Of a DNA stretch of 64,000 bases, positions 1 to 60,434 are shown piece by piece (within the stretch, counting starts at the first letter, position 1; every line of letters starts with the position of its first letter). The position numbers were made by a program, and so were the translations under genes. The stretch is from Bacteroidales bacterium (lineage in GTDB: Bacteria > Bacteroidota > Bacteroidia > Bacteroidales > Tenuifilaceae), in assembly GCA_013141385.1 (NCBI GenBank), contig JABFRB010000012.1, positions 1-64,000 of the forward strand. The letters run 5' to 3'. Below the pieces are notes generated by a model, which saw only the letters and a list, made by a program, of their open reading frames with translations, ran no database searches and was not told the origin of the DNA.

Positions 1-1
1 A

Positions 2-199
2 TACTTCGACAAGGCTGCTGCGGATCTATTCTCCACCGCTGTGTCTAGGGTACGTCAACCCATTGAGTCTTTCTTCAACTGGCTAGAGGAGAAGACTGGC
101 ATTCAAAGGGCGTCTAAAGTTCGATCGACAAACGGATTGCTTGTTCATGTGTTTGGTAGACTAGCCGTTGCATTTATGTACCTTTTTTTCAACCCTTAA
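2..199 (+). CDS. Transposase C-terminal fragment, IS982-like (partial at left edge)
   Basis: An open frame enters from the left edge and ends at TAA 197-199, giving about 65 residues. It carries the C-terminal pattern RQPIESFFNWLEEKTGIQ, then ASKVRS and HVFGRLA, which I recognise from the end of IS982-type DDE transposases. This is motif recall, not a search. The start and catalytic core lie outside the window, so it cannot be told whether the element is intact. It is the only plus-strand gene here and converges on the enoyl reductase gene with a 91-bp gap. It marks a mobile-element border next to the cluster. Another DDE family is possible. Confidence 0.6.
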   Translation, partial: YFDKAAADLFSTAVSRVRQPIESFFNWLEEKTGIQRASKVRSTNGLLVHVFGRLAVAFMYLFFNP

Positions 200-290
200 T
201 TCGCATTATTAAATAACTCTCATTCAAATACTGAATAAAATCTATCTTAATATTTGGTAAATCAACTTATTTTCAGCATCAATCTTTGCT

Positions 291-16215: not shown

Positions 16216-19200
16216 TCAGGAAAGATTTTTTAACAACTGCACAGCATGCAATGTATCTATTGAGTCATTATCAATCTTATTGATAATATCTTCAATTGAT
16301 TCTAAATTTTTCGTTGTTTTTACTTTGTCATCTAATCCTTGATTTACAAGTGTATTTTCAACCCAGTATCGTTCTTTGGCAAAGGGATAAGTAGGCAAAC
16401 TAATTCGTTGAGGTTTCCTGTCGCTGTATAACATGTTCCAATCTATATCCAAACCTTTAACCCATAAATCACCCAGTTTTGACAATTGTTTATGAGCCAT
16501 ACATTGATCAACAAATTTCTGCATGTCTTCATCTGAATTAAACATCAGCAAAGTGTCCTCATTGGGTTTAACTTTTCCCTGAAATGTACCTTCAACATCA
16601 TGTTGTCCATCAATGTAAGCTTTAAGCCTATCAATAAGTTGATCAACAGAATTAACCAAAAAGCCTAGTCGTACCTCCATCTCTTCTCGTCCTACCTGAA
16701 GGGTGTAAGCTATAGAATTCAAGTCTATTGTTTTTATTGATTGTGTTCTTTGGTTTTCTCTATGTTTAACTGTATCCGGAGAACTAATAAAATCCAGCAA
16801 ATCGTGAACTTTCTGTTTTAATTGTTCAGAAGTTCTGGCAGATAAGGGTATAACAACATCTTCATTCTGATAGAAAGCCCGTGTAGAAATAGATAGTTTA
16901 CCATTTGACTGTTGTTGATATTCTTCTAGAACTAAATGGGCATTAGTACCACTAAAACCAAAAGCGCTGACACCTGCACGACGTAAAGAATTTGAACCCG
17001 CTTCCCAAAACCGGTTTTCTTTATTGATATAGAAGGGAGAATTTTTAAAATCAAAATGAGAATTCTCCTTTGTTACATTCAAGGTAGAAACTAAAGTTTG
17101 GTGTTGCATGGATAATAAAACTTTATGTAAACTTGCAATACCTGCAGCTGCAGATGTATGTCCAATATTAGTTTTTACGGAGGCAATAGCACAGTAGTTT
17201 TTCTTTTCAGTTTTTTCTTTAAATACAGTATCAAGTGCTTTTAATTCTATCGGATCGCCTAATTTGGTACCTGTACCATGAGTTTCTACATAGCTAATGA
17301 TTTCCGGATCAATCTTGTATTTAGAATAAATATCACGAATTAACTCAATTTGACTATTGACACTTGGTGCAGTGATACCATTTGATTTGCCATCCTGATT
17401 AATACCAGAACCTAAAATAACTCCATAGATAGTGTCATTATCTCTTTTTGCATCTTCTAATCGTTTCAGTACTATTGCCCCTACTCCTTCGCCAACGACA
17501 ATACCATTAGCAGAATCATCAAATGTTTTACATTGCCCATCGGGTGATAACATTCCTGCTTGACTCATTCCTTGGTAAGATTCAGGTGTAAGCCATAAAC
17601 TAATTCCACCTGCCAAAGCCATATTTGTTTCATGATTTAATAACCCTTGGCATGCAAGGTGAATAGCCACCAACGATGAAGAGCATGCAGTATCTATAGC
17701 TATAGCTGGACCTTTTAAATTTAGATGGTAAGCTATTCTTGCCGCTGCTATGGAACTACTATCACTTGTAATTTGTGACGAAGCAACATTATTTTTAGAA
17801 CGCAGCAAAGAATATTCATTATGTGCAATACCAAGATAAACACCACACTTTTTATTACTTAAGCTACTACTAGAGTATCCTGCATCTTCAAATGCTTTAT
17901 AACTCTCTTGCAGAAACAACCGATGCTGAGGATCCATATTTTCAGCTTCCTGGGGAGATATTCTAAAAAACAGGGGATCAAAACAATCAATATCATCCAT
18001 AACTCCTAACCATTTTGAACATATTTTATCTGTTTTATTAGGATCCGGATCATAATATTTGTTTACATCCCAACGCGATGAAGGAATCTCAACAATTGAA
18101 TTCTTGCCCTGAACCAAGTTATCCCAATACTTTTGTAAATTGTTTGCTTGAGGATACCTTCCTGACATTCCAACAATAGCAATTTTGTCACTATCTAAAC
18201 TATTGTAACTCTTTGAAGGATTATCTTTACGTCTTATAGTTCGACTTATACGATTTATTTTTCTACCAGATTGATAGTTCGATAATTGTACAGAAGATTT
18301 TTCAGAAGAAAACGTTTGAATTTGTTTTTGAGAAGTAGCAGGTAATTTCCTAATTTCCTTTTCAAGGAAAATGGCCAATTCTTTTACAGTTGGATAATCA
18401 TAAACTACAATATTAGGTAACTGTGTACCATATTTTGTATTAATGGCAGTTACCCACTCTAATCCAAGAAATGATTCAAGACCTAGATCTCCAAAAGACT
18501 GATTTATATCAATAACAGATGTTTTCAAGTGGAGTATTTCAGCTAAACTAGTTTTTAATTCTTGCTGTAATTGCTGCAAAGAAATAGAAGCTTTGTTCGA
18601 TAATTGTAAAGAAGATTCATCAAAGGAGATTGTAGAAATTTGTTGTTTAAAAGTAGCAGGTAATTTCTTAATTTCCTTTTCAAGGAAAATGGCCAATTCT
18701 TTTACAGTTGGATAATCATAAACTACAATATTAGGCAACTGTGTACCATATTTTGTATTAATGGCAGTTACCCATTCTAATCCAAGAAATGATTCAAGAC
18801 CTAGATCTCCAAAAGACTGATTTATATCAATAACAGATATTTTCAAGTGGAGTATCTCAGCCAAACTAGTTTTTAATTCTTGCTGTAATTGCTGCAAGGA
18901 TACAGAAACTTTGTTTGTACAATATATATTACTATCTAATCTATCGGTAGAGGGATAGTCAATTTGTTGTTCTTTACTTTCTAGAAATGAAGAAATTTCT
19001 ATTTCATTAGATTGTGGCTTATTAGCCATTGAATCGACAGGAGGATAAACAACTCTCTGATGCTTAAACATATCCTCTAAAGCATCAGGATATGGTATCG
19101 GATTCTTTATTTTTTTCCAATTATATTCTTTTAATTCTTGCTCGCTTAATTGATTATTTCTTTTCAATTTGATCAATACATAGCTCATAATACCTTTTTC

Positions 19201-22200
19201 TAGTGAGAGCGAAAAATCGGCATAACCGAAATAGGTCTTCTGAATAGCTTCTGGCAAACGTTTAACATTACTATAAACGTCGGGATCATATAAGAAGTTA
19301 GATATTTGAGGAGAAACATCAATAAATTCATCTATTTCGAGGTTGAATTGAGAGATCAATTTAATCCAATCTTCTTGACTTGGTATATTCATCCCTACAT
19401 TTGGATCAACAAAAGCATCTTTTTGATTGGAAATAACATCCATTAGAAGTATTGTTCCATTTTCGTTGAGTGAGTTACAAATGTTTTTAAATAATCCTGC
19501 TTTATCATCGATATGAGGACATACTTCAATGCCAAAAACTAAATCGTACTTTGAAGGAAATGCATCTTTAGTACTGTCTTTATGATAAATCTTTACCTTG
19601 GAACTAAGGTTTTTTAATGCTATCCGCTGGTTTCCTAAATTCGCTTGGTTTCCGGTGATAGTAAAACCATGAACCTGCATATGAGGAAATAACGTGCCTA
19701 TTTGAATGATATCTGTACCATGACCACAACCAAAATCCAAAATAGAATTTATTTTTTCAAAATGCACTTTGCAAAATAATACTTGGCGCATTTCGGTTTG
19801 TTTTTCATGAATATATCGTCTATCCTCTGGATATTTTTTCGGATTTAAATATGCTCTCGACATAGAAAATCCCGGTTTTTTGGATTCAAAAGGACAAAAT
19901 GTTAAATATTCCATCTTAGATTCGACAGATGGTAAAACTAAAGAATAGACTTCCTCGACTTTATTAGCATACTTATATCCGCCAACATTTCCGTCATATT
20001 GTGATGTATTTCCAAAAGTTACCATCTGAGATGGTTGTCGATCATGATAAATTTTGGTTAAAAACTTTTCTACACGAGATGGTTTAGCAACCATGACTAA
20101 TGTCTGAAGTTGATCTGATTGTAGTATATCTTGCCAAATATCTAAACCCATTTGAGTAGTAAGCAATTCCTGTCCAAAATCCTGAGCAATCATTTTAATA
20201 TATTGCTCCGATTGAACTTTATCTTTAAAACCCATGCCACCCTCTTGCCACAGAGGCCAATTAATAACTGCTGTTTTCCCTTTATCTGGCATTGTTTGCT
20301 GGCGATAAAGAGCATATGCCATTTGGAAACGATTGGCTATAGCATAATCACATGAACCAGTATCACCAAACAAAGCAGCAGTAGATGAAAAATAACAAAC
20401 AAAATCAAGTGGCTGCTCACCAAAAACCTTATCTAATAAAATGGTACCGATTGACTTAGGAAGTATTACCTGATCGATATCATCTTTTGTACTTTCAAAA
20501 TAAGGCTTTGAAGCTTCAACACCTGCTGCATGGATAATCCCAAAAATGTCAAATGGGAGGTTACGAGCCAAAGAAACTAATGATTTTTCATCACTAATAT
20601 CAATAGAATAGTAGTGAATTTCTTTGGCTCCTGCCTGAGTTAATGCGTCTAATTGTTTTTGAATATTTTCTGTTAATGGATGTCTACCTAATAGTAAAAG
20701 TTTTGCTTGATAGTTTTTAGCCAGATATTGTGCAAATTTGAAACCCAATGCTCCACAACCACCAGTAATTAAATAATGTCCATTTTGTTTTACTATTGAT
20801 TGTTTTGTTGTTTTGTTTAGTTCAGATGGTTTATAGGACAATATAAATCTTTGATTGTTTTTATACCTAATTACACCTCTATGTTTTGATGCGTCTACCA
20901 TTTGTTGAACAGAAGGTGAAGTTGAATCGGTGTAAAGTATTGATATCTGCGTTTTAGATAGCGTTTGTTTTAGAGATCGTTCGAAACCAATCCAGGAATA
21001 ATCCCAACAAGAATCTAAGGTTAAAGAATCATAACGACCTACTAGAATAACGTTGGAAACATAATGAACCGATCCTTTGATGGCTCTAAATAAATTAAAT
21101 AATGCATGAATACCCTCTGCCTTCTGATCCTTTGCCCAACTATAAATAATAGCAATCGATGGGGTTACACCTTGTACATGTGTCCCAAGAGTTACGTCGT
21201 TGAGTATTTGTTGAACATCATTTATACTATTAGGACGGCAATTATAAATTCTCTCGGATATTTTTTTATACCTTTCTGCTTGATATACAAAAATAGCATT
21301 TCGTAATAGATCAGAATCGTTGCTATTTGCAATTTCCTTTTCAAATTCAGAGTCTGCAAAAATAACATATTGCATATTAGCCTCTTCCGATAGCATCCCA
21401 TCTAGTGGTTCTTCTTGCCAGTCTTCCTTATAATATAGTATTTTTGATATTTCGCGTGATTGCTCTGATTTTAGTTTCGATAACTCATTTGTGTCTAACA
21501 ACTGTTGTCTACCATCTAGATCGTTGGCATTGACAGCCATTGGTTGAAAAGTTAATCCCTTCATCTGCACACAAATGTTCCCTTGCACGTCACACAAATC
21601 AATATCTATTTTATTAATTACTGCATTTGAGTTAATCCCTTGAGAATTGTGTACCCATACATACATTTCTTTTGTACAGGCTGATATAATAGTCATAGTT
21701 TCCAGAGTATCTGGAAGCAAAGGATAGACAGGCAATTGATTAAAATCTGTAATCAAAACTATACTGGTGTATATTGCGCTTTCTAACAAACTAGGATGTA
21801 AATAATAATCAGATTGATTATTCTCTATAATAGCAGGAATATTGATCTTTGCTAATAACTGATTTGTCCCTTTATATACTTCGCTTAACGCCTGCATAGC
21901 TATACCATAGTTGAAACCCATCTGAGTCAATATACTATAAAAGTTAGTAACTTCTAGTTTATCTTTCCCCATTTTCTCTTTGAGTTTCTCTATATCAAGC
22001 TTATTAGACAATGATGATTTACTATTTAAAATGACTTTTCCACGGTTATGTATAATTTCCTCATCTGCCACTATACTATAAATTTCATAATCGATTGTTT
22101 CATCATCGTCCTCAAACAGGGCGATAGAGACATCTTTATCATTTGTGACTATAATAGGTTGTGTCCAAATAATATTATACAATTCAAGTATAATTGATTC

Positions 22201-25200
22201 CTGCTGAATTGATGTTGCCTGTTCTACTGCAGCACGAACCATTTCCAAATAGGCGGCAGCCGGCAGAACTTTATATCCATTAATTTGATGGTCGTTAAGG
22301 AAAAATTCCTTACCGTTAAAAGTGGAACTGTAACTCTGTTGACGGAGGTTTGATGTGTTGCTATGCAACAATGGATGCAGTACTGAAAAGGTAGTCAGTA
22401 TTTTGGATGCCATCAATGTTTCTTCTACTTCAAACCAGTATCGTTCCTTGGCAAAAGGATAAACAGGTAAGTTAATACGTCTGGGTTTATTATTGCCATA
22501 GAGCTTGTGCCAATCCAGCTCCAGACCTTTAACCCATAAATCCAACAGTTTTGATAGTTTCTTTTGGGCTATCCACTGATCAACAATCATCTCTTTCATG
22601 TCATCATCTCCACTAATGATGCTCATCCCTTCTTTATTACGTTTTACCTGCCCTTGATAAACGTTTTCAATATTTTCTTTACCTTCTGTATAGGACTTAA
22701 GTTTTTCAGCCAATTCTCCTATAGAACTAACCATAAAACCCAAACGTTCTCCCATTGCTTCTCTGCCCATTTGCAAAGTATAAGCCAACTCTACAAACTC
22801 TATTGTTTGCCCCTCTTGTCGAATATAATCAAGTAGATCACTAGCCTTCTGTTGTAGTTGCTCTGCTGTTCTGGCAGACAGAGGAATTATAATTTTATTA
22901 TTTTGGGTAATGAATGTAATATTCGACTTAGCTTCTATTGGAGGTAGATATTCTGCCAGTACTATATGAGCATTGGTGCCACCAAAACCAAAAGCACTTA
23001 CCGCAGCTTGACGTCGCTGAGAATCCTTTAACTCCCACTTCTGTAACTGGTTATTGACATAAAATGGGCTCTCTTTTAAACCAATATGCTCATTAAGATG
23101 ATCAAAGTTTATAGTTGGAGGCAGTTGTTTATGTTTCAACGCTAAAAGGACTTTGACAAAACTTGCAACCCCTGCAGCCGTTAAACAATGACCAATGTTG
23201 CTCTTCACCGAACCTAGGGCGCAATACTCTTTTTTCTGGGTATACTTTTTAAAGGTTGCTTTGAGGGCTCCAACCTCAATAGGATCACCTAATTTAGTAC
23301 CAGTACCGTGGGCTTCAACCAATTGAATATGCTCCGGATCAATATGATATTTGTCGTAAACCTCTTGTTCCAGGCGCGTTTGTGATTCCTCATTTGGGGC
23401 GGTAATGCCATTGGTTTTGCCATCCTGATTGACCCCCCAGCCTTGAATGACTCCTAGAATCGCATCATGATCTTTTTCTGCATCCGCCAGCCTTTTTAAC
23501 ATCACAACACCAACGCCTTCTCCTGGAACAAAACCATTGGCCTTCTGGTCAAAAGTAAAACACTTGCCATCTGGCGAGAGCATACTGGTTTGTGAACACA
23601 TAATATGCATAGAAGGGCCTGACAGCACATTGACACCTCCGGCTAAAGCTATGTCACTGCTTCCAGAATTCAAACTATCGCACGCACTGGCAATAGCAAC
23701 CAAAGATGAAGAGCAAGCAGTATCAATGGATAAACAAGGACCTTGTAAATTTAAGAAGTAGGAAATGCGTGCTGCCAATACAGAAGAAGCACTCCCTGTG
23801 AAGCCCTGAGCACTCAATTGGTGCTTTTGTGATAACTTATGATAGTCTCCCGGACCACAACCAACGAAAACCCCACATTTGGTACCCGACAGGCTTTTGG
23901 GGTTGTATCCTGAATTTTCTATGCTGTGCCAACACGTTTGTAAAAAAACTCGTTGTTGCGGATCCATGTTCTCCGCTTCTGTGGGTGAGATATTAAAAAA
24001 TAATGGGTCAAACAGGTCATATTCTTCTAAGGCTCCCATCCATTTACCATTGGTTTTTCCTGGTACAGGGCCTCCTTCTTTATAATAGGTATTAATATCC
24101 CAACGCTTCTGCGATATTTCACTGATGCAATTTTTGCCCTGAGCTATATTTTGCCAAAACTCTTCAAGGTTTTTTGCCTTGGGAAATTGTCCGGCCATAC
24201 CAATCACAGCAATTGGCTGATAGACAGAAGATGTACCAGCGTTAATTCTCGATGAGATTTTATTACGCCAGGATGAAAGTTTCTTAACAGCTGGTTGAGA
24301 AACTATTTTATTCTGTAATTTTAAAGGAATACTTAATTCTGACTTATTAGATAATGTAACCAGTTTTTCGGCTTCTTCTTTTACATAACGACTAAGTTGA
24401 GAAAGGGTTGAGTAACTATAAACTTTGGTCGCTTCAATCGAGGTTTTATATTTTTCATTAATCTTACGTATCCAAGTCACACCAGTAATAGAATCTAAAC
24501 CCAGATCGACAAATTGAGTATTCTCTTCAATTTCATGCTCTTGTAAATGCAACTCCTGAGCTAAAAGCTGTCTAAGGCTGGCTGTAACTGTAGGCAAAAT
24601 ATCTATCTGTTGAACATAAGAAGCCGAATTAGCGGATATACTAACTTCTGATTTGTTAGTTAAAGTATCTACTTTTTCAACTTCTTCTTTTACATAACGA
24701 CTGAGTTGAGAAAGGGTTGAGTAGCTATAAACTTTGGTCGCTTCAATCGAGGTTTTATATTTTTCATTAATCTTACGTATCCAAGTCACGCCAGTAATAG
24801 AATCTAAACCCAGATCGACAAATTGAGTATTCTCTTCAATTTCATGCTCATGCAGATGCAACTCCTGGGCTAGGAGCTTACGAAGGTTGGCAGAAACAGA
24901 AGCCATGTTTTCATTACTGGACATTGGGTCTACAATTGCCGGACTTAATAATATTTCATCAGGGTTCGCTTTTATGGGAATATGACTATTCGCCTGAATA
25001 AAATTATTTTCAATTTGAGCCAAAGTTTCAGATTGACCAACAAAAGTTTTTTCATGCATGCCCAACTCAAGTTCATAGGCCTCTTCTAGTGGTTTATGAA
25101 AATGGTGAGTCATTTGATGTTTGAAGGCTATTAATTGACTTCGCGAACTATTCGCTATTTGTTTGGCTAAATCAAGAGCTGCTATATTAACTTGCTCTCT

Positions 25201-28200
25201 TTGTATAACTGGGATAAGAAGCCCTCTCTCTTTGAACTCTCTGCCATTATATTCTTGCCCCGTCAGCAAGGTTTCTCTTGACAGGTCATACCCGATTTTT
25301 TCAGGAAATATAAAAGTGGCTCCCGCTCCAGGTGTAAATCCATAGTTCATATACGGGCTAAAATATTTACTTTCTTCGCTAAACACGATGAAATCGGCAA
25401 ACATTCCCAAAGACCATCCTGCTCCAATACCGTGACCTTGCATGGCTGCAATTACTGGTACCTTGCACGTCATCGTGATTTGATAAATTTTATTATCGGT
25501 AAATTTGGTTTTTCCTTCCTGTATGGATAACAAAGTCTCTTTGGTACCACCTGAAGCAAAGTATTGTTCATAACCAGTCAGAATCACAACCTTATAAGAG
25601 GGCGATTTTTCAATATGATCAAAAACTTCGTTAATTCCCTGTATTATTGCGTCGGAAAACATATTCTTCGCTTCCCGATCTTCCATTTTTACCACGAGAA
25701 TCCCTTCAGGATATGCCGTTGCGGTTATAACGTTTGATTTAAGAGTTATTAAGATCGGCAAAGTGGATAGTGTCTCGATTGCCTCTTCTTTCGGCTCTGA
25801 CCAAGCCGGCTGATTTGTAATTTTTTCCCGGATACTGAAAATCATTTGTTTTTTCCACGATACTATAGTATCCAATGGCAACTTAGACCAATTTTCAGCT
25901 AACTTTAAAGCTGTGGTCAGAACTTGTTCCTGCACCACACTATTTATGGTTCCAACTTTTTGCTGTAATTCAATTCCTGAATACTCATTGCCTGTCAGTA
26001 ATATTTCTTTACCAAAGTAGTTGCCAAACCGATACGAAAAAATCATAGCAGCTTGCCTTGCCAACTCTGAACTTTGTCCAATATTGGCAGATGAATAACT
26101 ACCTTTTGCATTATAAATACAAGCATCACAAAACTGGCTGATGAACCAAGCTAAACCCTTAGCATTCGAATCCAAAGCGGCTATGACAGGAAGAGGTGAT
26201 TCAAGAACAAGACGTTGAAAATCCAAAACGTCATTAACAGAAACTTTCTCCGAAAGAAAATCAAGATAATCACTAACAAGAACAATGGATTTGTATTTAG
26301 ATGAATTGTTAAGCTGTGCAAATATATCGGTTAAATCTGCAACTAACGTTTTCATTCCTGATCCTTTCTTTGCATCACAAACCCTGATTACAAGTACACT
26401 TTTCGCATGGGTTTCCAACAGAATCTGTTTCGATGTTGATGTTATTTTGCTGCCAGCCCTTGATTTATCCGTTTGTTTATTCGCATTTAACGGATCGACC
26501 ACGGTCAAAGCGCCCACAAGGTCATTAATGTGACGGGCTAAATGCTGCTTCAACAGGCGAAGCGATGCCCCAGATTTCTTCGCTAATTTCGATGCTAGCA
26601 CGAGCGCGTGGGCTTCAACCTGATCCTGATTCAAAATAGAGCAAGTCCACCCTTTGTCCTTGAGCTGGTTGCCAGTGGAACCTTCTGAAATATACAGAAA
26701 GTCCGTTGCCCGAACCCCGCCAAACCGCTCTTCGAAAAGTTGATATTCGCTCTCGCTGGGATAGAGGCCCTCCTGAGGGCTCGTGTAATAATACCTCCCT
26801 GTCCGGCTGCAAATCATAAAATCACACAGGGCACCGATCAGGAAGCCGACACCTGTGGCATCACCCTGCATGGCGGCGATGACGGGGTATGGGAATGAAG
26901 TGATGGCGTGATGCAGCTTCTGCCCGACGGCTTCGTTGTAGTGCTCCCTGCCGCCGCTTAAAAATGAGCGATTGGTTCCCTTAATCATTAACACCTTGAT
27001 CGATTCGGTCTGCCTTGCCATTTCAAGTGCTCGCAGTAAGAGTCCTATCAATCCTCTTTCGAGCGTATTGTTCTCTTCTGCGGATACTTGAATCGAAAAG
27101 ATCCCGTTCCCGCAATCGTATAGGTTGACGGATGGGGATGCAAATACCTGATGCTCTCCTGATGATGTCGTATATGATGTATTTGTCAGTGTAATCGAAC
27201 CTTTACCTGAGGATGCCTTTTCAGTCATTTCCGTTCTAAGAACTTCCGGAGAAGTCAACGATATTCCCGTTGGCTTGTGTAAGCCGATTTGCTTAAACGT
27301 TTGGTTTTGAGGTTCATTAAATGTAATTTTTGGGGTTATAACAGAAGAAATGGGTATTTGTTCTGACACCTGTGGTATTGCTGATGAAATTGTCTGACTG
27401 GTAGCCTCATCTATTAAATTCTGTGTCCCATACTGGCATACAACTCCACGCATTTGCACACATACATTCCCTTTTTGATCACACAAATCAATATCCACTT
27501 TTGCAGTTTCAGCTTCTGATTGACTCGCCTGTGAATAACGAACCCATGCAAACATTTCCTTTGTACAAGCTGATATTATACTTACAAGTTCAAAAGCAGA
27601 AGGAAGAGATGGTTGGAACTGACTTTGCGATAAATCTCCGATTAAACCAGCAGAGGCCTGCATGACACCCTCTATCATGCTTGGGTGTAACAGATAATCA
27701 TTTTGATCCGCATCAACAACTGTTGGTAAAATGAGTTGCACAAGCAGTTGTTCTTCTCCATGGTAAGCAGAAGTTATTGCCTTATAAGCAGAACCATAGT
27801 TAATACCTGCCTTGGTAAAAATTGAATATAGTTCGCTTGCTTCTAGTCTACCCTTTATTTGTCCTTTGAGTTGTTCAATGTTTAACTTTGCAGGTGTTGG
27901 TTGATGATTAAATATAGCTTGTCCTTGGCAATGAATAACTTCTTCCTCTTTGTTCTTGCTATATATTTCATAGTCTACCTGATCATCACCTTTCGCAAAC
28001 AGGGCTATGTCAATTTGTCCATTTTCCGAAATAACAAAAGGTTGTCCACAAACAATATTATGTAACTCTAAAATGCTTGACTCTTGCTTGGCAGGTAAGG
28101 CTTTACTCACTGCAGCCCTAGCCATTTCTATATAGACTACAACTGGTAGCGTTTTTTGCTCACCTCTATTATCAATATTAATCTGATAATCAGATATAAA

Positions 28201-31200
28201 TAATTCATTACCGCTAAAAGTTGAACTGTAACTCTGCTGGCTTAGATCTGAGGTGTTCGTATGCAGTAAAGGATGAAGTACTGCTGTTGTCTTTCCAGCA
28301 ACACCAAGTTGTCCCCTCACTACCGTATCAACCCAGTAACGTTCTTTAGCAAACGGGTAGGTTGGCAAACTGATGCGATGGGGTTTTTTATCGCCATAAA
28401 GTTTGCCCCAATCAATATCAAGACCTTTAACCCACAATTTTAGTTTTGAGAGTTTTTTCTGGTCTATCCATTTTTCAACAGTTTGTTGTAAATCATCATC
28501 CGAAGTATCCAAGGGCAGCGTATCCTTCTCTCTTTTAACCTGCCCCATATAAGAATCTTCAATATCTTGTTCCCCTCTGATATAGGCCTGAAGTTTGTTA
28601 GCCAGTTGATCAATTGAACCAACCATAAAGCCCAGACGTTCCTCCATTGATTCCCTGCCCACTTGTAGGGTATATGCTAAGGAAACAAGATCAGGTTGAT
28701 GTTTATGAATAAACCCTAATAGATCTTTAACTTTTTGTTTTAGTTGTTCCTTAGTCCTAGCTGATAAAAGGATGATAACCTTTGCATTTTGTTCAACATC
28801 AGTAATTGACTGACTTGCTTCCACTGAGGACACATACTCCTGTATAATGATATGTGCATTTGATCCTCCAGCACCAAAGGAGGATAATCCTGCGATTCTA
28901 GGTATTACTTGACCATCAATAACTGGTTGCTCCCATGTTCTTAAAGTCTGATTAACAATAAATGGAGTCTTTTGAAAATCAATATACGGATTTAATTTCA
29001 CCGAATGCAACGAAGGTACGATTTGCTTATATTGCATTTGCAATAGGACTTTTGCAAGCCCAGCTATACCCGCTGCAGATTCACAATGACCAATATTGGA
29101 TTTGGCAGATCCTATTAAACAAAATTCACTATCCCGAGTATGCTTTTTAAAAGCCTGACTCAGTGCGGTAATTTCAATCGGGTCACCTAACTTTGTTCCT
29201 GTACCATGAGCCTCTAGATAGCTAATATGACGTGCATTAATGTTTGATTCCGCAAGAGCTCTGCTAATAGCTGCAGCTTGAGCATTAGGATTAGGAACAG
29301 AATACCCATTGGTTTTTCCACCATGATTTAGTGCACTACCTCTTAGGATACCATAAATGTGATCGCCATCCCTCTGGGCTTCGGACAATCTTTTCAGTAT
29401 TACAACCCCTACACCTTCCCCTGGAATATAGCCATCACCACCCTCTCCAAAACTTTGGCAATGACCATCGCTAGAAATAAATTGCCCAGCGCTAAGTATC
29501 AGATACTTATTAGGGTGAATACTAACATTTACTCCTCCTGCAATCGCCAAACTTGTGCGTCCTAGTTTTAAATCCTGACAAGCTAAATGAATAGCCGTCA
29601 ATGAAGAAGAGCACATGGTATCCAGTGTCATGCTAGGACCATGCAAATTAAAGACATATGAAACTCTATTTGCAATACTAGCATAACTGTTGCCAATTCC
29701 CATGCGCTTTCCCTGCGTACCAGCTTCCGCTCCAAAAAGTTGATATTCTCCCCACATCACACCAACATACACCCCAACCTGACCCGCTAGGTCTTGTTCA
29801 TGAGCTATTTGCAAGCCGGCACGGGTATAACCCGCATCTTCTATAGCCATCCAGGCATGTTGTAAAAATAAACGTTCCTGTGGATCTATATTCTCCGCTT
29901 CCCGTGGCGAGATGTTAAAAAATCTCGGGTCAAATTCGTCGACTCCTGCAATAAAACCACCCCATTTACTAAAATGCTGCCCGCTTTTCGTGCGATCTTC
30001 GCTATAGTAATCACGCCAATCCCAACGCTCTTTAGGGACTTCAATGATACAGTCTTTCCCATCACGCAAGTTGTGCCAAAATTCTTCAATATTATGTGCT
30101 TCAGGAAAACGACCACTTAATCCAATAATCGCAATTGGATCTGTAACTATTGATCTAGTTGAATTTGCTAAAGCAGAAGTTTGGTTCTGACGGTTAAAAC
30201 GATGACCTGAAATAGTTCGGTTTTGAGCCAAAGGTTTTTGTTCGGATAGCTTGTTAACTGATATTTTCTGAGAATTATCTGCAATATTAAAGATTGATGA
30301 CAATTTATCTAAATGGGTTTTGCTAAAATATTCTGCAAGTTCACTAATAGTCTGATATTCAAAGAATAGTGTTTTAGACAAAGTCCCAAAAGTCTTTTCC
30401 AATTGACTGGTTAAATTCATCGCCAGTATAGAATCAATCCCATACTTCTCAAGGCTAGCTTGTGGATCAATCTTATGAGCTGGCAGGCTTAACATTCCAG
30501 AGAATTCTTTACACAAATAGTTTTGGGTTTTTTCTAATAAACTACCTGAATTAATCTCTGCCACAACAAATTGTTCTTCTTTAGTGATGGCTTTTGAAGT
30601 CTCTGAATGAGTATTCTGATTATCGATTATCGTTCGGCGTATTTGCGATAAATTACCTTTCAATACCATCATCTGAGCATGTTGTAATTCTAGGCTACGA
30701 TAAAATGCGAACATCCCCGTTATATTTGAGATTGATTGCAACCCCATGGTTTGCTGCATCATGTCCTGTTTTGCCTGATCTATAATCATTCCACCTTCTT
30801 GCCACAATGGCCAATTGATGGATAAAGTATTCCCTTTTCTAAATTCTTTACCTCTTAGTTTATTCCTATAAGCAGCAAATTGATCCATAAACGCATTCGC
30901 TGTAGCATAATCTGCCTGACCCACATTGCCTACAGATGCTACTGAAGAAAATAATACAAAAAAATCTAAATCAATGTTCTGGCTGGCTTGATCAAGATTA
31001 TAAGTTCCTAAAACTTTAGGTTCAAGAACTTGTCTAAATTCTGTGGATGTTTTCTTAATAATAAAATTGTCTGAAACCATCCCTGCGCAATGAATAATGC
31101 CATTGAGGGATTTATGCTCTTTATTGACAGAGGCAATGAGTTGTTGTACTTGATTTAAATCACATATATCCAATTGTTTATAAACAACCCTATCAGTCTC

Positions 31201-32013
31201 AGTAGACAACTGACCTAAAAAAGATTGTTTTTTTGAGGTCAATTCTGAACGGTCAGTTAAGATAACTCTTGCCTTTTTAGTTTGCTGTAAAATTTCTTTC
31301 GCTAAGAGTATGCCCAAACTACCAAGTCCACCTGTAATAAGGTAAGAACCTTGATCTTTGAAAACTATCTTAGGTTCATCCTGACTTGTTTCTATTTCTT
31401 TCCAACGTAAAACATATCGCGTTTCTTGCTCATATTTAATAATTGCATTATGACCTACAACTTGTTCTCTTTGAAATTGTTTTGCTAATATTTCCGCTGA
31501 AGTTTGTGGTGTTGTGAGAATAACTTGACCTATTAACATTGGATTCTCCAGCGCAGCAGTTTTAAGTAAGCCCGATAGACCAACAAGAAGAGTTTCCTCC
31601 TGCTCGTCTCCAATAACAATCTGGACAAATATTTTCCCTTGAGGTTTGCCTTTAAGTATTTTCTGAATAAGTTCAAAACTGGTTAAGGCGTATTCATTGT
31701 AACGTTCAGCAATATTTTTCTGCTTATCTGTTTGTAACAATATACAATGACTACGTGGAACCAAATTCTCAACTTGTTTAATATTAATATTTGGCAATTC
31801 ACATAGAATAATGTACTGTTCTATGTATCTTGAGTTATTCAAATCAGGTGACACTTCACCTATACTTGGCTCCCACACAGGAATAGAAAAAAGAATATCA
31901 TTTTTCTCCCCTTGTTCCTGCAACTTTAAAGTCTTAATTTTCCCTAAAGCTTCCTTTTGCGTAAGCTTGCCACTAGACAAGTCTTGATATATTTCTTTAA
32001 TCTTTTGTTTCAT
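16216..32013 (-). CDS. PKS3: trans-AT polyketide synthase, modules 5 (rest) to 8 (KS), 5265 aa
   Basis: Approximate order: docking helices 1-30; KR5 (GGLGSLG about 222, Tyr about 369); ACP (Ser about 528); KS6 625-1059 (Cys about 801, TMCSSS); dead DH6 1244-1525 (DHQ reads DYQ, HPSxxD reads HPSMIE); three crotonases 1629-2337; ACP pair (Ser about 2405 and 2508, both DSITGVTW); KS7 2599-3018 (Cys about 2767); dead DH7 3211-3491 (HPSLLESAIY); KR7 (Tyr about 3890, no LDD-type Asp, hence A-type); O-methyltransferase 4010-4320 (LDFGCGHGTDI about 4095, then GFTITGNQANLG); ACP pair (Ser about 4408 and 4514, LESFLGLEW); KS8 4609-5032 (Cys about 4777); docking tail about 5235-5265. After each KS comes the trans-AT linker ending LPTYPFAKERYW, with no AT. 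Module 6 should install a beta-branch and module 7 a methoxy group. Start ATG at 32013, 8 bp after the PKS2 stop. I take the MT as O-type from its motif; C-type is less likely. Confidence 0.95.
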   Translation of the reverse strand: MKQKIKEIYQDLSSGKLTQKEALGKIKTLKLQEQGEKNDILFSIPVWEPSIGEVSPDLNNSRYIEQYIILCELPNINIKQVENLVPRSHCILLQTDKQKNIAERYNEYALTSFELIQKILKGKPQGKIFVQIVIGDEQEETLLVGLSGLLKTAALENPMLIGQVILTTPQTSAEILAKQFQREQVVGHNAIIKYEQETRYVLRWKEIETSQDEPKIVFKDQGSYLITGGLGSLGILLAKEILQQTKKARVILTDRSELTSKKQSFLGQLSTETDRVVYKQLDICDLNQVQQLIASVNKEHKSLNGIIHCAGMVSDNFIIKKTSTEFRQVLEPKVLGTYNLDQASQNIDLDFFVLFSSVASVGNVGQADYATANAFMDQFAAYRNKLRGKEFRKGNTLSINWPLWQEGGMIIDQAKQDMMQQTMGLQSISNITGMFAFYRSLELQHAQMMVLKGNLSQIRRTIIDNQNTHSETSKAITKEEQFVVAEINSGSLLEKTQNYLCKEFSGMLSLPAHKIDPQASLEKYGIDSILAMNLTSQLEKTFGTLSKTLFFEYQTISELAEYFSKTHLDKLSSIFNIADNSQKISVNKLSEQKPLAQNRTISGHRFNRQNQTSALANSTRSIVTDPIAIIGLSGRFPEAHNIEEFWHNLRDGKDCIIEVPKERWDWRDYYSEDRTKSGQHFSKWGGFIAGVDEFDPRFFNISPREAENIDPQERLFLQHAWMAIEDAGYTRAGLQIAHEQDLAGQVGVYVGVMWGEYQLFGAEAGTQGKRMGIGNSYASIANRVSYVFNLHGPSMTLDTMCSSSLTAIHLACQDLKLGRTSLAIAGGVNVSIHPNKYLILSAGQFISSDGHCQSFGEGGDGYIPGEGVGVVILKRLSEAQRDGDHIYGILRGSALNHGGKTNGYSVPNPNAQAAAISRALAESNINARHISYLEAHGTGTKLGDPIEITALSQAFKKHTRDSEFCLIGSAKSNIGHCESAAGIAGLAKVLLQMQYKQIVPSLHSVKLNPYIDFQKTPFIVNQTLRTWEQPVIDGQVIPRIAGLSSFGAGGSNAHIIIQEYVSSVEASQSITDVEQNAKVIILLSARTKEQLKQKVKDLLGFIHKHQPDLVSLAYTLQVGRESMEERLGFMVGSIDQLANKLQAYIRGEQDIEDSYMGQVKREKDTLPLDTSDDDLQQTVEKWIDQKKLSKLKLWVKGLDIDWGKLYGDKKPHRISLPTYPFAKERYWVDTVVRGQLGVAGKTTAVLHPLLHTNTSDLSQQSYSSTFSGNELFISDYQINIDNRGEQKTLPVVVYIEMARAAVSKALPAKQESSILELHNIVCGQPFVISENGQIDIALFAKGDDQVDYEIYSKNKEEEVIHCQGQAIFNHQPTPAKLNIEQLKGQIKGRLEASELYSIFTKAGINYGSAYKAITSAYHGEEQLLVQLILPTVVDADQNDYLLHPSMIEGVMQASAGLIGDLSQSQFQPSLPSAFELVSIISACTKEMFAWVRYSQASQSEAETAKVDIDLCDQKGNVCVQMRGVVCQYGTQNLIDEATSQTISSAIPQVSEQIPISSVITPKITFNEPQNQTFKQIGLHKPTGISLTSPEVLRTEMTEKASSGKGSITLTNTSYTTSSGEHQVFASPSVNLYDCGNGIFSIQVSAEENNTLERGLIGLLLRALEMARQTESIKVLMIKGTNRSFLSGGREHYNEAVGQKLHHAITSFPYPVIAAMQGDATGVGFLIGALCDFMICSRTGRYYYTSPQEGLYPSESEYQLFEERFGGVRATDFLYISEGSTGNQLKDKGWTCSILNQDQVEAHALVLASKLAKKSGASLRLLKQHLARHINDLVGALTVVDPLNANKQTDKSRAGSKITSTSKQILLETHAKSVLVIRVCDAKKGSGMKTLVADLTDIFAQLNNSSKYKSIVLVSDYLDFLSEKVSVNDVLDFQRLVLESPLPVIAALDSNAKGLAWFISQFCDACIYNAKGSYSSANIGQSSELARQAAMIFSYRFGNYFGKEILLTGNEYSGIELQQKVGTINSVVQEQVLTTALKLAENWSKLPLDTIVSWKKQMIFSIREKITNQPAWSEPKEEAIETLSTLPILITLKSNVITATAYPEGILVVKMEDREAKNMFSDAIIQGINEVFDHIEKSPSYKVVILTGYEQYFASGGTKETLLSIQEGKTKFTDNKIYQITMTCKVPVIAAMQGHGIGAGWSLGMFADFIVFSEESKYFSPYMNYGFTPGAGATFIFPEKIGYDLSRETLLTGQEYNGREFKERGLLIPVIQREQVNIAALDLAKQIANSSRSQLIAFKHQMTHHFHKPLEEAYELELGMHEKTFVGQSETLAQIENNFIQANSHIPIKANPDEILLSPAIVDPMSSNENMASVSANLRKLLAQELHLHEHEIEENTQFVDLGLDSITGVTWIRKINEKYKTSIEATKVYSYSTLSQLSRYVKEEVEKVDTLTNKSEVSISANSASYVQQIDILPTVTASLRQLLAQELHLQEHEIEENTQFVDLGLDSITGVTWIRKINEKYKTSIEATKVYSYSTLSQLSRYVKEEAEKLVTLSNKSELSIPLKLQNKIVSQPAVKKLSSWRNKISSRINAGTSSVYQPIAVIGMAGQFPKAKNLEEFWQNIAQGKNCISEISQKRWDINTYYKEGGPVPGKTNGKWMGALEEYDLFDPLFFNISPTEAENMDPQQRVFLQTCWHSIENSGYNPKSLSGTKCGVFVGCGPGDYHKLSQKHQLSAQGFTGSASSVLAARISYFLNLQGPCLSIDTACSSSLVAIASACDSLNSGSSDIALAGGVNVLSGPSMHIMCSQTSMLSPDGKCFTFDQKANGFVPGEGVGVVMLKRLADAEKDHDAILGVIQGWGVNQDGKTNGITAPNEESQTRLEQEVYDKYHIDPEHIQLVEAHGTGTKLGDPIEVGALKATFKKYTQKKEYCALGSVKSNIGHCLTAAGVASFVKVLLALKHKQLPPTINFDHLNEHIGLKESPFYVNNQLQKWELKDSQRRQAAVSAFGFGGTNAHIVLAEYLPPIEAKSNITFITQNNKIIIPLSARTAEQLQQKASDLLDYIRQEGQTIEFVELAYTLQMGREAMGERLGFMVSSIGELAEKLKSYTEGKENIENVYQGQVKRNKEGMSIISGDDDMKEMIVDQWIAQKKLSKLLDLWVKGLELDWHKLYGNNKPRRINLPVYPFAKERYWFEVEETLMASKILTTFSVLHPLLHSNTSNLRQQSYSSTFNGKEFFLNDHQINGYKVLPAAAYLEMVRAAVEQATSIQQESIILELYNIIWTQPIIVTNDKDVSIALFEDDDETIDYEIYSIVADEEIIHNRGKVILNSKSSLSNKLDIEKLKEKMGKDKLEVTNFYSILTQMGFNYGIAMQALSEVYKGTNQLLAKINIPAIIENNQSDYYLHPSLLESAIYTSIVLITDFNQLPVYPLLPDTLETMTIISACTKEMYVWVHNSQGINSNAVINKIDIDLCDVQGNICVQMKGLTFQPMAVNANDLDGRQQLLDTNELSKLKSEQSREISKILYYKEDWQEEPLDGMLSEEANMQYVIFADSEFEKEIANSNDSDLLRNAIFVYQAERYKKISERIYNCRPNSINDVQQILNDVTLGTHVQGVTPSIAIIYSWAKDQKAEGIHALFNLFRAIKGSVHYVSNVILVGRYDSLTLDSCWDYSWIGFERSLKQTLSKTQISILYTDSTSPSVQQMVDASKHRGVIRYKNNQRFILSYKPSELNKTTKQSIVKQNGHYLITGGCGALGFKFAQYLAKNYQAKLLLLGRHPLTENIQKQLDALTQAGAKEIHYYSIDISDEKSLVSLARNLPFDIFGIIHAAGVEASKPYFESTKDDIDQVILPKSIGTILLDKVFGEQPLDFVCYFSSTAALFGDTGSCDYAIANRFQMAYALYRQQTMPDKGKTAVINWPLWQEGGMGFKDKVQSEQYIKMIAQDFGQELLTTQMGLDIWQDILQSDQLQTLVMVAKPSRVEKFLTKIYHDRQPSQMVTFGNTSQYDGNVGGYKYANKVEEVYSLVLPSVESKMEYLTFCPFESKKPGFSMSRAYLNPKKYPEDRRYIHEKQTEMRQVLFCKVHFEKINSILDFGCGHGTDIIQIGTLFPHMQVHGFTITGNQANLGNQRIALKNLSSKVKIYHKDSTKDAFPSKYDLVFGIEVCPHIDDKAGLFKNICNSLNENGTILLMDVISNQKDAFVDPNVGMNIPSQEDWIKLISQFNLEIDEFIDVSPQISNFLYDPDVYSNVKRLPEAIQKTYFGYADFSLSLEKGIMSYVLIKLKRNNQLSEQELKEYNWKKIKNPIPYPDALEDMFKHQRVVYPPVDSMANKPQSNEIEISSFLESKEQQIDYPSTDRLDSNIYCTNKVSVSLQQLQQELKTSLAEILHLKISVIDINQSFGDLGLESFLGLEWVTAINTKYGTQLPNIVVYDYPTVKELAIFLEKEIKKLPATFKQQISTISFDESSLQLSNKASISLQQLQQELKTSLAEILHLKTSVIDINQSFGDLGLESFLGLEWVTAINTKYGTQLPNIVVYDYPTVKELAIFLEKEIRKLPATSQKQIQTFSSEKSSVQLSNYQSGRKINRISRTIRRKDNPSKSYNSLDSDKIAIVGMSGRYPQANNLQKYWDNLVQGKNSIVEIPSSRWDVNKYYDPDPNKTDKICSKWLGVMDDIDCFDPLFFRISPQEAENMDPQHRLFLQESYKAFEDAGYSSSSLSNKKCGVYLGIAHNEYSLLRSKNNVASSQITSDSSSIAAARIAYHLNLKGPAIAIDTACSSSLVAIHLACQGLLNHETNMALAGGISLWLTPESYQGMSQAGMLSPDGQCKTFDDSANGIVVGEGVGAIVLKRLEDAKRDNDTIYGVILGSGINQDGKSNGITAPSVNSQIELIRDIYSKYKIDPEIISYVETHGTGTKLGDPIELKALDTVFKEKTEKKNYCAIASVKTNIGHTSAAAGIASLHKVLLSMQHQTLVSTLNVTKENSHFDFKNSPFYINKENRFWEAGSNSLRRAGVSAFGFSGTNAHLVLEEYQQQSNGKLSISTRAFYQNEDVVIPLSARTSEQLKQKVHDLLDFISSPDTVKHRENQRTQSIKTIDLNSIAYTLQVGREEMEVRLGFLVNSVDQLIDRLKAYIDGQHDVEGTFQGKVKPNEDTLLMFNSDEDMQKFVDQCMAHKQLSKLGDLWVKGLDIDWNMLYSDRKPQRISLPTYPFAKERYWVENTLVNQGLDDKVKTTKNLESIEDIINKIDNDSIDTLHAVQLLKNLS
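18290..18925 (-). repeat. Tandem 318-bp repeat encoding the module-7 ACP pair
   Basis: Two copies, offset by exactly 318 bp (106 codons), encode the two ACPs after the O-methyltransferase. Both read DLGLESFLGLEW: Glu replaces Asp before the serine, and a Trp follows six residues after it. The copies differ at only a handful of positions. Confidence 0.85.
24340..24900 (-). repeat. Tandem 309-bp repeat encoding the module-6 (beta-branch) ACP pair
   Basis: Two copies offset by 309 bp (103 codons) encode ACPs with DLGLDSITGVTW. The Trp six residues after the phosphopantetheine serine is the flag reported for ACPs that take part in beta-branching. The pair directly follows the crotonase triplet, as expected for a branch-forming ACP doublet. 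Confidence 0.85.
25005..27130 (-). other. In-line triple crotonase (ECH-ECH-ECH) region of module 6, PKS3
   Basis: Three crotonase-superfamily domains lie in series at about residues 1629-1845, 1865-2062 and 2100-2337 of PKS3. The first has MQGDATGVGFLIGALCDFMI and a GWTC segment. The second is divergent (LDSNAKGLAWFIS in place of the glycine-rich oxyanion loop) and may be structural. The third has MQGHGIGAGWSLGMFAD and YMNYGFTPGAGATFIFP and looks like the PksI/MupK decarboxylating ECH2 type. In HMG-CoA-synthase cassettes ECH1 dehydrates and ECH2 decarboxylates the branch. A dead DH precedes the triplet and a Trp-flagged ACP pair follows it. Confidence 0.85.
26480..27130 (-). other. GC-rich island over the first crotonase of PKS3
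   Basis: Base composition changes sharply inside the open frame. Lines 26701-26760 and 26881-26940 hold 35/60 and 34/60 G+C, against 21/60 at 25981-26040 in the same gene. The island coincides with one domain, which points to recent import of that domain from a GC-richer donor. Confidence 0.75.
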
Positions 32014-38000: not shown

Positions 38001-41000
38001 TTTACTAATAATAACTTCTTTCGTTTCTTCATCCTGATTGATAATGTTCAAACCTTCCTTATTGCGCTTAACTTGTCCTTGATACGAATCTTCAATCCCC
38101 TGCTCACCATCAAGATAGGATTGAAGCTTTACAGTTAGTTGATTGATCGAACTCACCATAAAACTCAGGCGTTCCTCCATAGCATCTCGACCAACCTGCA
38201 AAGTATAGGCTAACCCCGCCAAATCAATGGATTCTTCCTCTCTGCAAATGAAGTCTAATAAATCACGTACCTTTTGTTTAAGTTGCTTTGCCGTTCTAGC
38301 AGAAAGAGGGATAATGAATTTTGTATTCTGTGCAATCGGTTTAACTACTTTAGAAGGCAAATGCTCTGCTAAAACTATATGAGCATTGGTACCGCTAAAG
38401 CCAAAAGAACTAATTGCAGCTTGACGTCGCAGTGCATCCTTTAACTCCCACTTTTGCAACTGGCTATTAATATAAAACGGACTCTCTTTTAAATCAATAT
38501 GTTCATTCAGCTTATCAAAGTTTATTGTCGGAGGCAGTTGTTTGTGTTTCAACGCCAAAAGAAGTTTTATAAATCCTGCAACCCCTGCTGCCGATAAACA
38601 ATGACCAACATTACTTTTTACTGAGCCTAAGGCGCAATAGTTTTTTTTCTGGGTATATTTTTTAAATGCTTCTTTGAGTGCCTCAACCTCAATAGGATCA
38701 CCTAACTTTGTTCCTGTTCCATGGTTTTCAATCAATTGAATACTATCTGGATCGATATGATATTTATCGTAAACCTCTTGTTCTAGCCGTGTTTGTGATT
38801 CCGCATTAGGGGCGGTAATCCCATTGGTTTTGCCATCCTGATTGGCTCCCCAACCTTCAATGACACCAAGAATTATATCATGATCTTTTTCTGCATCAGC
38901 CAACCTTTTCAGCATCACAACACCAACGCCTTCACCTGGAACAAAGCCATTGGCTCTATTATCAAAGGTAAAACATCTGCCATCTGTCGAGAGCATCCCT
39001 GTTTGTGAACTCATAATATGAATTGAAGGACCTGCCAACACATTAACACCTCCAGCCAATGCTATATCGCTATTGCCCAAAATCAAGCTATCACAGGCAC
39101 TTGCAATAGCAATCAGAGATGAAGAACAAGCAGTATCAATAGATAAACAAGGACCTTGCAAATTTAAATAGTAGGAAATACGTGCAGCTAATATCGAAGA
39201 AGCAGCCCCTGTAAAACCTTGGGCACTCAATTGATGCTTTGGTGATAATTTGTGATAATCTCCAACACCACAACCAACAAAAACTCCACATTTGGTGCCA
39301 GACAGGCTTTTAGGATTGTATCCTGAACTTTCTATGCTGTGCCAACATGCTTGTAAAAAGACCCGTTGTTGAGGATCCATATTTTCCGCTTCTGTGGGCG
39401 AGATATTAAAAAATAGGGGATCAAAAAGATCATATTCTTCTAGAGCTCCCATCCACTTACAATTGGTTTTTCCTGGTACTGGCTTCCCTTCATGATAATA
39501 AGTGTTAATATCCCAACGATTTTGAGATATCTGACTGATACAATTTTTACCCTGAGCAATATTTTGCCAAAATTCTTCAAGATTGCTAGCTTGAGGAAAT
39601 TTTCCTGCCATGCCCACCACCGCAATCGACTGTGATTGATAAGCAGAATATGCACTTGGGTTAATTTTCAATGAAGTTTTATTACGCCAAGAAGAAAGTT
39701 CTTTTATAAAAAACTCACTAGAAATCTTATTCTGTGGTTTTGCAGGAATAACCTGTTTATTAATCAGCGTTCCCTTTTTTACCGCCTCTTCTTTTACATA
39801 ACGACTGAGTTGGGTGAGGGTTGGGTAACTATAGACTTTAGTCGCCTCAATCGAGGTTTTATACTTTTCATTTATCTGTCGTATCAAGGTCACACCCGTA
39901 ATAGAGTCCAAACCAAGATCAACAAATTGAGTATTCTCATCAATATCCTGCTCCTGCAAATGCAACTCCTGGGCTAAAAGCTTTTTAATGCTAGCTGTGA
40001 CTGCAGGCAGCACATCTACATCTGGCACTGAAACCACAGAGGCAAAAGATGTATCAGGGTTAATCCCCAATGTCGTTTTGTTACGCCAAGAAGAAGACTC
40101 ATTAATCGTTATTTCATTCTGTGGTTCTGCAGGAATAACCAATTTATTAAGCAGTGCTCTCTTTTTTGCCGCCTCTTCTTTTACATAACGACTGAGCTGT
40201 GTGAGAGTTGGGTAACTATAGACTTTAGTCGCCTCAATCGAGGTTTTATACTTTTCATTTATCTGTCGTATCAAGGTTACGCCAGTAATAGAGTCCAAGC
40301 CAAGATCAACAAATTGAGTATTCTCATCAATATCCTGCTCCTGCAAATGCAACTCCTGGGCTAAAAGCTTTTTAATGCTAGCTGTGACTGCAGGCAGCAC
40401 ATCTACATCTGGTATTGAAATCGCAGAAACAGAAGATGTATCAAGTAAGCTCGAACTCGATATTGTTTTTTCAGAGAGTGAGGTAGTGCTCTGTAAATCA
40501 GTATGTCCTTGAATAAAACTGGTATTTATCCGTTTTAATGCTTCAGATTGACCTACAAATGTTTTTTCATGCATGGATAGTTCAAGTTTATATGTTTCTT
40601 CCACTTGACTATGGACATGCTGTGTCAATTGGTGCTTGAGAGCGATCAAACCCCCTCTCTTTTTCTGTGCTATTTTTTTTGCTAAGTCAAACGCAACTGG
40701 ATTAACTTGCTCTCGAGGTAAAACGGAAATCCGAAGTCCTCTGTTTTTTAAGTCTATACCCGTGTATTCCCGTGCTGTCAATAAGGTTTCTCTCGCCAAA
40801 TCATACCCCATTACGTAAGGAAAAATAAACGTGGCTCCTGCTCCAGGCGTAAAACCAAAATTCATATACGGACTCAAGTAGTGACTTTCTTCACTGAACA
40901 GGATCAAGTCTGCAAACATCCCAAGAGACCATCCACCACCAATACCATGTCCCTGCATAGCAGCAATTACAGGTACCTTGCACTCCATTGCCAGTTGATA

Positions 41001-59669: not shown

Positions 59670-60434
59670 TTACTTTTTATTAATCCCCCATTCTTCTACA
59701 AAATCATACTTTACTTTTAGATATTTTTCTTTATTCAATTTTTCTGAAAACTCAGACATATACTTGTAGTTTTGCTCAGCACCAAAGAAATTGATTAACA
59801 AATCAAAAAATAATCCTCCCATCGAAACATCTTGATAATAGTCGATTTCAAATTCTCCATTCTCCAGAGGGGTATATTTCCACCAATTGTGCATATGCGA
59901 TAAACGAATACGACCCTCATTTAGTGGAATTCTATTGGGATAAGCCATAACATCTGTACAGACTATTTTATTTTGCTTATCTATGGATATTTGAGATCTC
60001 ATTATTATTTCACTGTTTGAGAACAGAGGAAGCATTTTATATTCATACATTACAGTATTGGCCATAGATTTTGTATTAAATGGATCGATAACTTTAAAAG
60101 CGACACAACCAGGAGCCCAATCAGTGAGGTCTTCTTCATAATGTTCATTTTCTATAAGCCCTGCTATGATTTGATTCATCGTACAATTCACACGAAAATT
60201 AGCCTTAAAATTCTTAACACGAGAACCGGGGAATTTTAAAGAGTAAATTTTCACCCCATTCCTATCAATATCTAATTTCCATTTATTTGAACCAGATAAG
60301 ATCCATCCCCAGTAGAATAAGGTAATAATAATGATAAGAGATGATATGCCATATAATAAAAACCTTAGAACCTTTTTGATCCTATTTTTTTTTCGGGGTT
60401 TAGGTGTTGCGCTTGTAGTCTCCATTTTTTCCAT
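59670..60434 (-). CDS. Membrane-anchored START/SRPBCC-domain protein B
   Basis: A 254-aa protein with a basic N-terminus, one membrane segment at about 25-48 and then a START-like lipid-binding domain. Recognisable stretches are SGSNKWKLDIDRNGVKIYSL after the membrane segment and IPLNEGRIR, HNWWKYTP and DVSMGGLF further on. It is a clear paralogue of the gene just upstream, sharing the whole layout and many of these motifs. START domains enclose a hydrophobic ligand. Beside a PKS cluster it could bind or shuttle the polyketide or a lipid at the membrane, but that is inference. The start is the first of two nearby ATGs (60434 or 60422) and neither has a Shine-Dalgarno. Confidence 0.8.
   Translation of the reverse strand: MEKMETTSATPKPRKKNRIKKVLRFLLYGISSLIIIITLFYWGWILSGSNKWKLDIDRNGVKIYSLKFPGSRVKNFKANFRVNCTMNQIIAGLIENEHYEEDLTDWAPGCVAFKVIDPFNTKSMANTVMYEYKMLPLFSNSEIIMRSQISIDKQNKIVCTDVMAYPNRIPLNEGRIRLSHMHNWWKYTPLENGEFEIDYYQDVSMGGLFFDLLINFFGAEQNYKYMSEFSEKLNKEKYLKVKYDFVEEWGINKK

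Follow-up and report, generated by a model that had tools for sequence, protein, structure and literature searches.

In-line triplets of ECH2-type crotonase domains in trans-AT polyketide synthases and their possible role as covalent pseudo-trimers

The free crotonases of beta-branching cassettes are trimeric. PksI and PksH are trimers (PMC7501309), and BonH and BonI are trimeric by size-exclusion chromatography (PMC12560621). A holo acyl carrier protein (ACP) lies between two VirD subunits, and a model based on small-angle X-ray scattering places the ACP likewise on VirE (PMC10006238). Modular ECH2 domains, which are found in line, are associated with exo-methylene branches, as in weishanmycin and kalimantacin (PMC7618002, PMC12560621). 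Assembly lines are dimeric, which raises the question of how trimeric cassette enzymes operate within them. The nearest published description found of the arrangement treated here is a truncated inactive ECH that precedes an ECH2 (PMC9600693). The present analysis concerns three consecutive crotonase (ECH) domains, termed a, b and c in N to C order, in the polyketide synthase PKS3 of a Bacteroidales bacterium (whole genome 5.5 Mb). The gene lies in a stretch of 64,000 bp, here called the window, which is positions 1-64000 of contig JABFRB010000012.1 (C12).

Only domain c of the PKS3 triplet looks catalytic, as judged from its residues, and the two dead domains are preserved in distant bacteria, probably since the three fold together as a built-in trimer, which would help to attach a carbon branch to the product. 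The evidence leans slightly towards a covalent pseudo-trimeric crotonase in a dimeric megasynthase, an old and recurrent module type that would resolve a clash between three-fold and two-fold symmetry. The observation made in an initial annotation of this DNA is confirmed, and its interpretation is partly supported.

The crotonase triplet of PKS3

The triplet spans 24970-27132 (Table 1), in a synthase whose Pfam layout includes KR-ACP-KS-DH-ECH-ECH-ECH-ACP-ACP plus further modules, and also MT. Each of the three ECH domains separately passes the Pfam ECH_1 cut-off and is given a crotonase fold by AlphaFold2, in agreement with the three in-line domains first proposed. The arrangement had also been said to be repeated, and a second triplet is indeed present in PKS2 (40488-42647) and a third in a 9362-amino-acid (aa) PKS encoded on the genome's contig C4; this contig also encodes a 6475-aa PKS with an a-c doublet. 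Among the genome's own copies, identity at the same position (a 47-60%, b 41-60%, c 60-68%) is well above that across different positions (mostly 19-30%), which points to an old repeated arrangement and no fresh duplication. A recent local duplication is ruled out, as triplet domains from different genomes cluster according to their position (a, b or c).

Residues were counted on a joint alignment of 30 a, 30 b and 31 c domains, the genome's own C4 copies included. PksI requires the catalytic residue His230, and a PksI Lys80 mutant is still active (PMC7501309). The His230 equivalent is present in all 31 c domains but in none of the 30 a or 30 b domains, and the Lys80-Phe81 segment is gapped in every a (30/30) and b (30/30) and in no c. 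Gly66 is retained in 30/31 c, 18/30 a and 1/30 b domains. The GxG loop persists in 29 of the 30 a domains; b is without the loop glycines as well as without the His. Because His230 occurs only in c, with catalytic residues missing from a and b, c is the sole domain expected to decarboxylate. It has a crotonase fold closest to PksI/CurF, and in the triplet model it superposes on PksI at 1.1 Å across 253 residues; both its fold and its His are those of an ECH2 decarboxylase, and the early assignment of the third domain as PksI/ECH2-like stands. The middle domain had been described as lacking the usual oxyanion glycines, which the Gly66 count bears out, and as possibly structural. It is degraded and plausibly structural, but the first domain is likewise catalytically dead, a point that had been missed.

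The nearest solved structures to a, b and c alike are CurF and PksI, and the best NCBIfam model for both a and b is the ECH2 model, although both fall below its cut-off. An ECH1/ECH2 phylogeny, suggested at the outset, was computed from 89 rows and again from 59 of these 89, with 9 long-branch rows and 7 thinned loci dropped. Free ECH1 forms its own group (support 100 in the full tree and 100/100 after pruning), away from all three triplet domains. Domain b is monophyletic (Shimodaira-Hasegawa-like approximate likelihood ratio support 85 with all 89 rows, 100/100 after pruning) and is placed beside c and free ECH2. In the full tree group a needs three changes and c has support 58; in the pruned tree a, c and free ECH2 need two changes each. 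The great distance to the ECH1 root makes the placement of a uncertain. By sequence a, b and c are probably all of ECH2 (PksI/CurF) lineage. That a or b is an ECH1 dehydratase is ruled out, as neither groups with ECH1 in either tree.

With all three domains on the ECH2 side, the module is not self-contained, contrary to what the initial annotation had supposed, and ECH1 and HMGS act in trans. Contig C4 carries genes identified by sequence as HMGS, ECH1 and free ECH2; a fully self-contained branching module is ruled out, HMGS and ECH1 being separate genes. An in-line ECH2 followed by acceptor ACPs, and an HMGS cassette in the genome, are features of a branching module with modular in-cis ECH2 (mECH), and both were found. 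In 5/5 genomes examined, the contig with the triplet also has an HMGS-ECH1-ECH2 run, its HMGS 79-82% identical; these genomes were picked from seven already showing a free ECH2 on that contig and do not represent a blind count. PfaD at the left end of C12 (window 1-1667) and HMGS-ECH1-ECH2-AT at the right end of C4 both read leftwards, and the two ends may adjoin in a single cluster of >180 kb, probably split by assembly.

Recurrence and selection

A single scan of 84,980 species genomes, made with the c alignment and two short peptide patterns and giving a lower bound, yielded 54 loci, and in 27 of these a complete a-b-c is found in one frame by hidden Markov model (HMM) parse. A. muelleri (L031) has two copies with an incomplete a and is outside the 27. 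Isolates with the triplet belong to Fulvivirga, Aquimarina, Kordia and Chitinophaga among Bacteroidota and to Aliikangiella, Steroidobacter and Lysobacter among Gammaproteobacteria. The remaining triplet loci come from metagenome-assembled genomes, some filed under other phyla. As these loci (e.g., L022, L025, L036) may reflect binning errors, the case for a spread beyond Bacteroidota depends on the isolates of the three gammaproteobacterial genera. Twenty loci were followed into 19 genomes, where 42 matches at E<=4.9e-49, with scores well apart from those of c- and a-type matches, were read as b domains. The question of whether the triplet was already common and characterised thus has a divided answer: it is recurrent, as the 27 complete loci and the 42 b matches attest, but no characterisation was found in the open literature searched. 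Pseudomarimonas arenosa (G471) has a triplet and an a-c doublet in one genome, as does the genome of the window, and such genomes are useful for asking what b adds.

The a-b-c order is invariant across the 27 complete loci and lengths are near constant. The HMM-defined linker between b and c measures 2-7 aa in 27 of 29 rows, the exceptions being L049 and L051. Ratios of nonsynonymous to synonymous substitution (dN/dS), taken from ten pairs of moderate dS out of the 25 closest ones listed, are 0.18-0.34 for a, 0.12-0.35 for b and 0.06-0.19 for c. In one very close pair (L038/L040) b has a dN/dS of 0.70, a figure with few changes behind it. The values from the ten pairs indicate purifying selection on each of the three domains, and neutral decay of a and b is ruled out by dN/dS. 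The decay of a and b is old and maintained, not local, given the 27 loci with a complete triplet in the same order. The dN/dS values also bear on the idea that a and b are functionless relics of tandem duplication in the course of being lost. The missing catalytic residues, the branch lengths of b, the fastest-evolving of the three in the full tree, and the loss of b from the genome's 6475-aa PKS would fit such relics, but b forms one clade across many lineages in both trees, has the low dN/dS values given above and recurs one to four times in each of 19 genomes. This idea is already disfavoured and is considered very improbable.

Predicted packing and possible roles of the first two domains

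AlphaFold2, supplied with 29 natural sequences, gave a mean predicted local distance difference test (pLDDT) score of 90.0 and a predicted template modelling (pTM) score of 0.90 over the 729-residue triplet. Across three domains of equal size, this pTM is taken to mean a predicted fixed mutual packing; the yardstick for reading it is a value of about 0.4 expected for unlinked domains. It is reasonably likely, from the model and from analogy with the free enzymes, that the beta-branching module carries a, b and c as a covalent pseudo-trimer in which c is active and a and b are structural. The free enzymes are trimeric, and the ACP binds where two subunits meet. Within a dimeric synthase, a single in-line ECH2 would therefore be short of neighbours unless these are fused to it. 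In the proposal, a and b persist because an ECH2 is functional in trimeric form. They would do no chemistry but would supply the neighbour surfaces of a homotrimer, including the ACP docking surface between subunits, and the one-chain pseudo-trimer, in which c alone has an active site, would fit a three-fold enzyme into a dimeric synthase and so avoid a clash of symmetries.

The PKS3 triplet module would then install a beta-branch as follows. A trans cassette (donor ACP, KS0, HMGS, ECH1) would build and dehydrate a hydroxymethylglutaryl (HMG)-type intermediate on the tandem ACPs: the beta-keto chain would receive an acetyl unit from HMGS, be dehydrated by the trans ECH1 and be decarboxylated in cis by c. 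Literature on modular in-cis ECH2 suggests that the outcome is most likely a beta,gamma (exo-methylene) branch.

The docking data can also be read another way, in which a and b form a mere docking or spacing platform for the ACPs or the trans cassette and make no trimer with c. ACPs dock between neighbouring crotonase subunits in VirD and in modelled VirE (PMC10006238), and tandem ACPs directly follow the triplet. The high pTM over all three domains, however, fits mutual packing better than separate platforms, and a platform by itself appears quite improbable; the platform and pseudo-trimer ideas overlap.

The glycines that remain in a bear on a further possibility, that the dead-looking a, and perhaps b, binds substrate or product and sets the double-bond position (exo-methylene vs endo-methyl) while c decarboxylates, with no pseudo-trimer formed. 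The GxG loop and the Gly66 of many a domains are in keeping with such steering. In addition, a truncated ECH before an ECH2 is reported to be common with exo-methylene branches, the ECHa of LasH/LasO being called inactive (PMC9600693), and Art21, an ECH2 homologue with the catalytic His changed to Gln, reprograms its assembly line (PMC11425284). Yet the catalytic His is absent from every a domain, b, with neither glycines nor His, is left unexplained, and lasonolide module 10, of the same architecture, yields an endo-methyl (PMC9600693), so that the exo-methylene link of truncated ECH plus ECH2 is not strict. Steering appears unlikely.

Several observations weigh against the pseudo-trimer proposal or limit the spread of the triplet. 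The pTM of 0.90 indicates a confident fixed arrangement only and not a three-fold geometry. With its retained glycines, ECH-a may have a residual role. The position of PksI Gly108, which acts via its backbone, is Ala in 29/31 c domains. The tandem ACPs of PKS2, just after 40488, have GLDSITGVTL, with Leu for the flag Trp, and several triplet modules of Aquimarina, Fulvivirga and Chitinophaga have Phe at that position. In an own-phylum sample of 395 genomes, 25 matched at E<=1e-8 (own genome among them), and an in-line b was seen nowhere outside the own genome, all other matches being in frames of 213-314 aa. In a 60-genome kinship sample, 7/60 matched and the own genome was the sole clear b carrier; G002, of the same genus, shows an ECH-like match within a frame of 1479 aa that lies at the edge of a contig. 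The triplet is therefore rare in a random sample. Also, a-c without b is found in the genome's own 6475-aa PKS, Pseudomarimonas (L052), Nostoc (L076) and Ensifer (L078), and c alone in line in Eleftheria (L077), so an in-line ECH2 is evidently able to work without the full triplet. A plasmid search matched 822 records; the 8 examined contained no triplet, but two a-c doublets, one in-line single c and five other ECH2 matches.

The locus and its relation to known systems

Both catalytic residues of DH6 are replaced (His to Tyr, Asp to Glu) and the domain is probably dead, as had been suspected. The DH before the triplet has both residues in only 2 of the 27 modules (L025, L042), and in four (L032, L033, L035, L037) a KS takes its place with no DH; the DH is thus no needed partner of the triplet. 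The linker before ECH-a is variable except for [KR]Pxx[IVM]x[LIV], which 26 of the 27 aligned triplet modules share, with the PKS2 counterpart at aa 1515. This KPxxISL-like motif looks like the opening of KPxRISLPTYPF, a KS-linker motif. Both PKS3 ACPs carry the Trp of the acceptor flag GxDSx5W, as originally read. The two ACPs of each pair in PKS3 and PKS2 look near-identical by translation, and likewise other PKS2/PKS4 pairs. Elsewhere in the window, two similar proteins of ~250 aa (59670-60434, 60539-61285), which lack an NCBIfam match and have a hydrophobic stretch near the N terminus, adjoin a short GMC-type oxidoreductase (61368-62684).

Table 1. Coordinates of PKS3, its triplet module and the PKS2 triplet in the window
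Feature	Position	Strand	Description and basis
PKS3	16216-32013	minus	trans-AT-type polyketide synthase, 5265 aa, carries triplet; open reading frame and Pfam domains
KS6 of branching module	29005-30141	minus	Pfam ketoacyl-synt N and C, PKS3 aa 625-1003
DH6	27430-28275	minus	Pfam PKS_DH_N and PS-DH, PKS3 aa 1247-1528; probably dead
KPTGISL motif, linker DH6/ECH-a	27256-27276	minus	PKS3 aa 1580-1586
PKS3 ECH-a	26461-27132	minus	Pfam 94 bits; phmmer CurF 1e-18; predicted fold; C-terminally shortened, no catalytic His
PKS3 ECH-b	25783-26439	minus	Pfam 49 bits; phmmer CurF 1.4e-10; predicted fold; shortened, no catalytic His, degraded oxyanion loop
PKS3 ECH-c	24970-25761	minus	PksI-type ECH2 decarboxylase domain (putative), catalytic His in MHEKTF
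PKS3 tandem acceptor ACPs	24382-24885 (approximate)	minus	both GLDSITGVTW; Pfam PP-binding on second ACP
PKS2 ECH-a	41976-42647	minus	Pfam 110 bits; 60% identity to PKS3 ECH-a
PKS2 ECH-b	41292-41951	minus	Pfam 44.5 bits; 60% identity to PKS3 ECH-b
PKS2 ECH-c	40488-41273	minus	Pfam 172 bits; 68% identity to PKS3 ECH-c

Because b scores weakly (44-49 bits against a PF00378 cut-off of 27), annotation may count such modules as having one or two ECH domains. No description of an in-line ECH triplet was found in the open-access literature, most subscription papers, including a 2021 beta-branching review, being outside the search. Aquimarina sp. Aq78 is the producer of cuniculene (PMC9323603). Its one triplet (L035) is on a contig that holds 7 of the 13 above-cut-off trans-AT-type linker matches of Aq78, which suggests that it lies within the cuniculene trans-AT PKS cluster; the triplet is thus probably present in a published cluster and undiscussed in the open literature searched. 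The a-b-c block offers an expressible unit of ~730 residues with which to test a trimeric enzyme in a dimeric assembly line, and a portable part with which beta-branches can be introduced in cis.

Compared with the PksI/CurF type of ECH2, where free PksI is a homotrimer with three active sites, the triplet has one active and two dead domains fused in the synthase. Modular in-cis ECH2 of the kalimantacin and weishanmycin kind is like the triplet in having an in-line ECH2 beside tandem ACPs and an HMGS cassette in trans, but is spoken of as one mECH domain, whereas the triplet has two further dead crotonase domains before it. Doublets of truncated ECH and ECH2 (ECHa-ECHb of LasH/LasO, OnnB, and the Nostoc and Ensifer loci) resemble the triplet in that a shortened, dead ECH precedes an active ECH2. 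No b was found in the Nostoc or Ensifer locus; LasH/LasO and OnnB are compared by published description and may hold a hidden b. OnnB is described as ECH1 plus ECH2, and the triplet is ECH2-only. The ECH-Q domain of Art21 from the aurantinin system is ECH2-derived, has lost the catalytic His and is still needed; in the first two of these features it is like a and b. Unlike the in-line triplet, it is a single domain, joined to a thioesterase and separate from the synthase (PMC11425284). Modular in-cis ECH2 is thus already known, and the three-domain triplet is the new element relative to the open literature searched.

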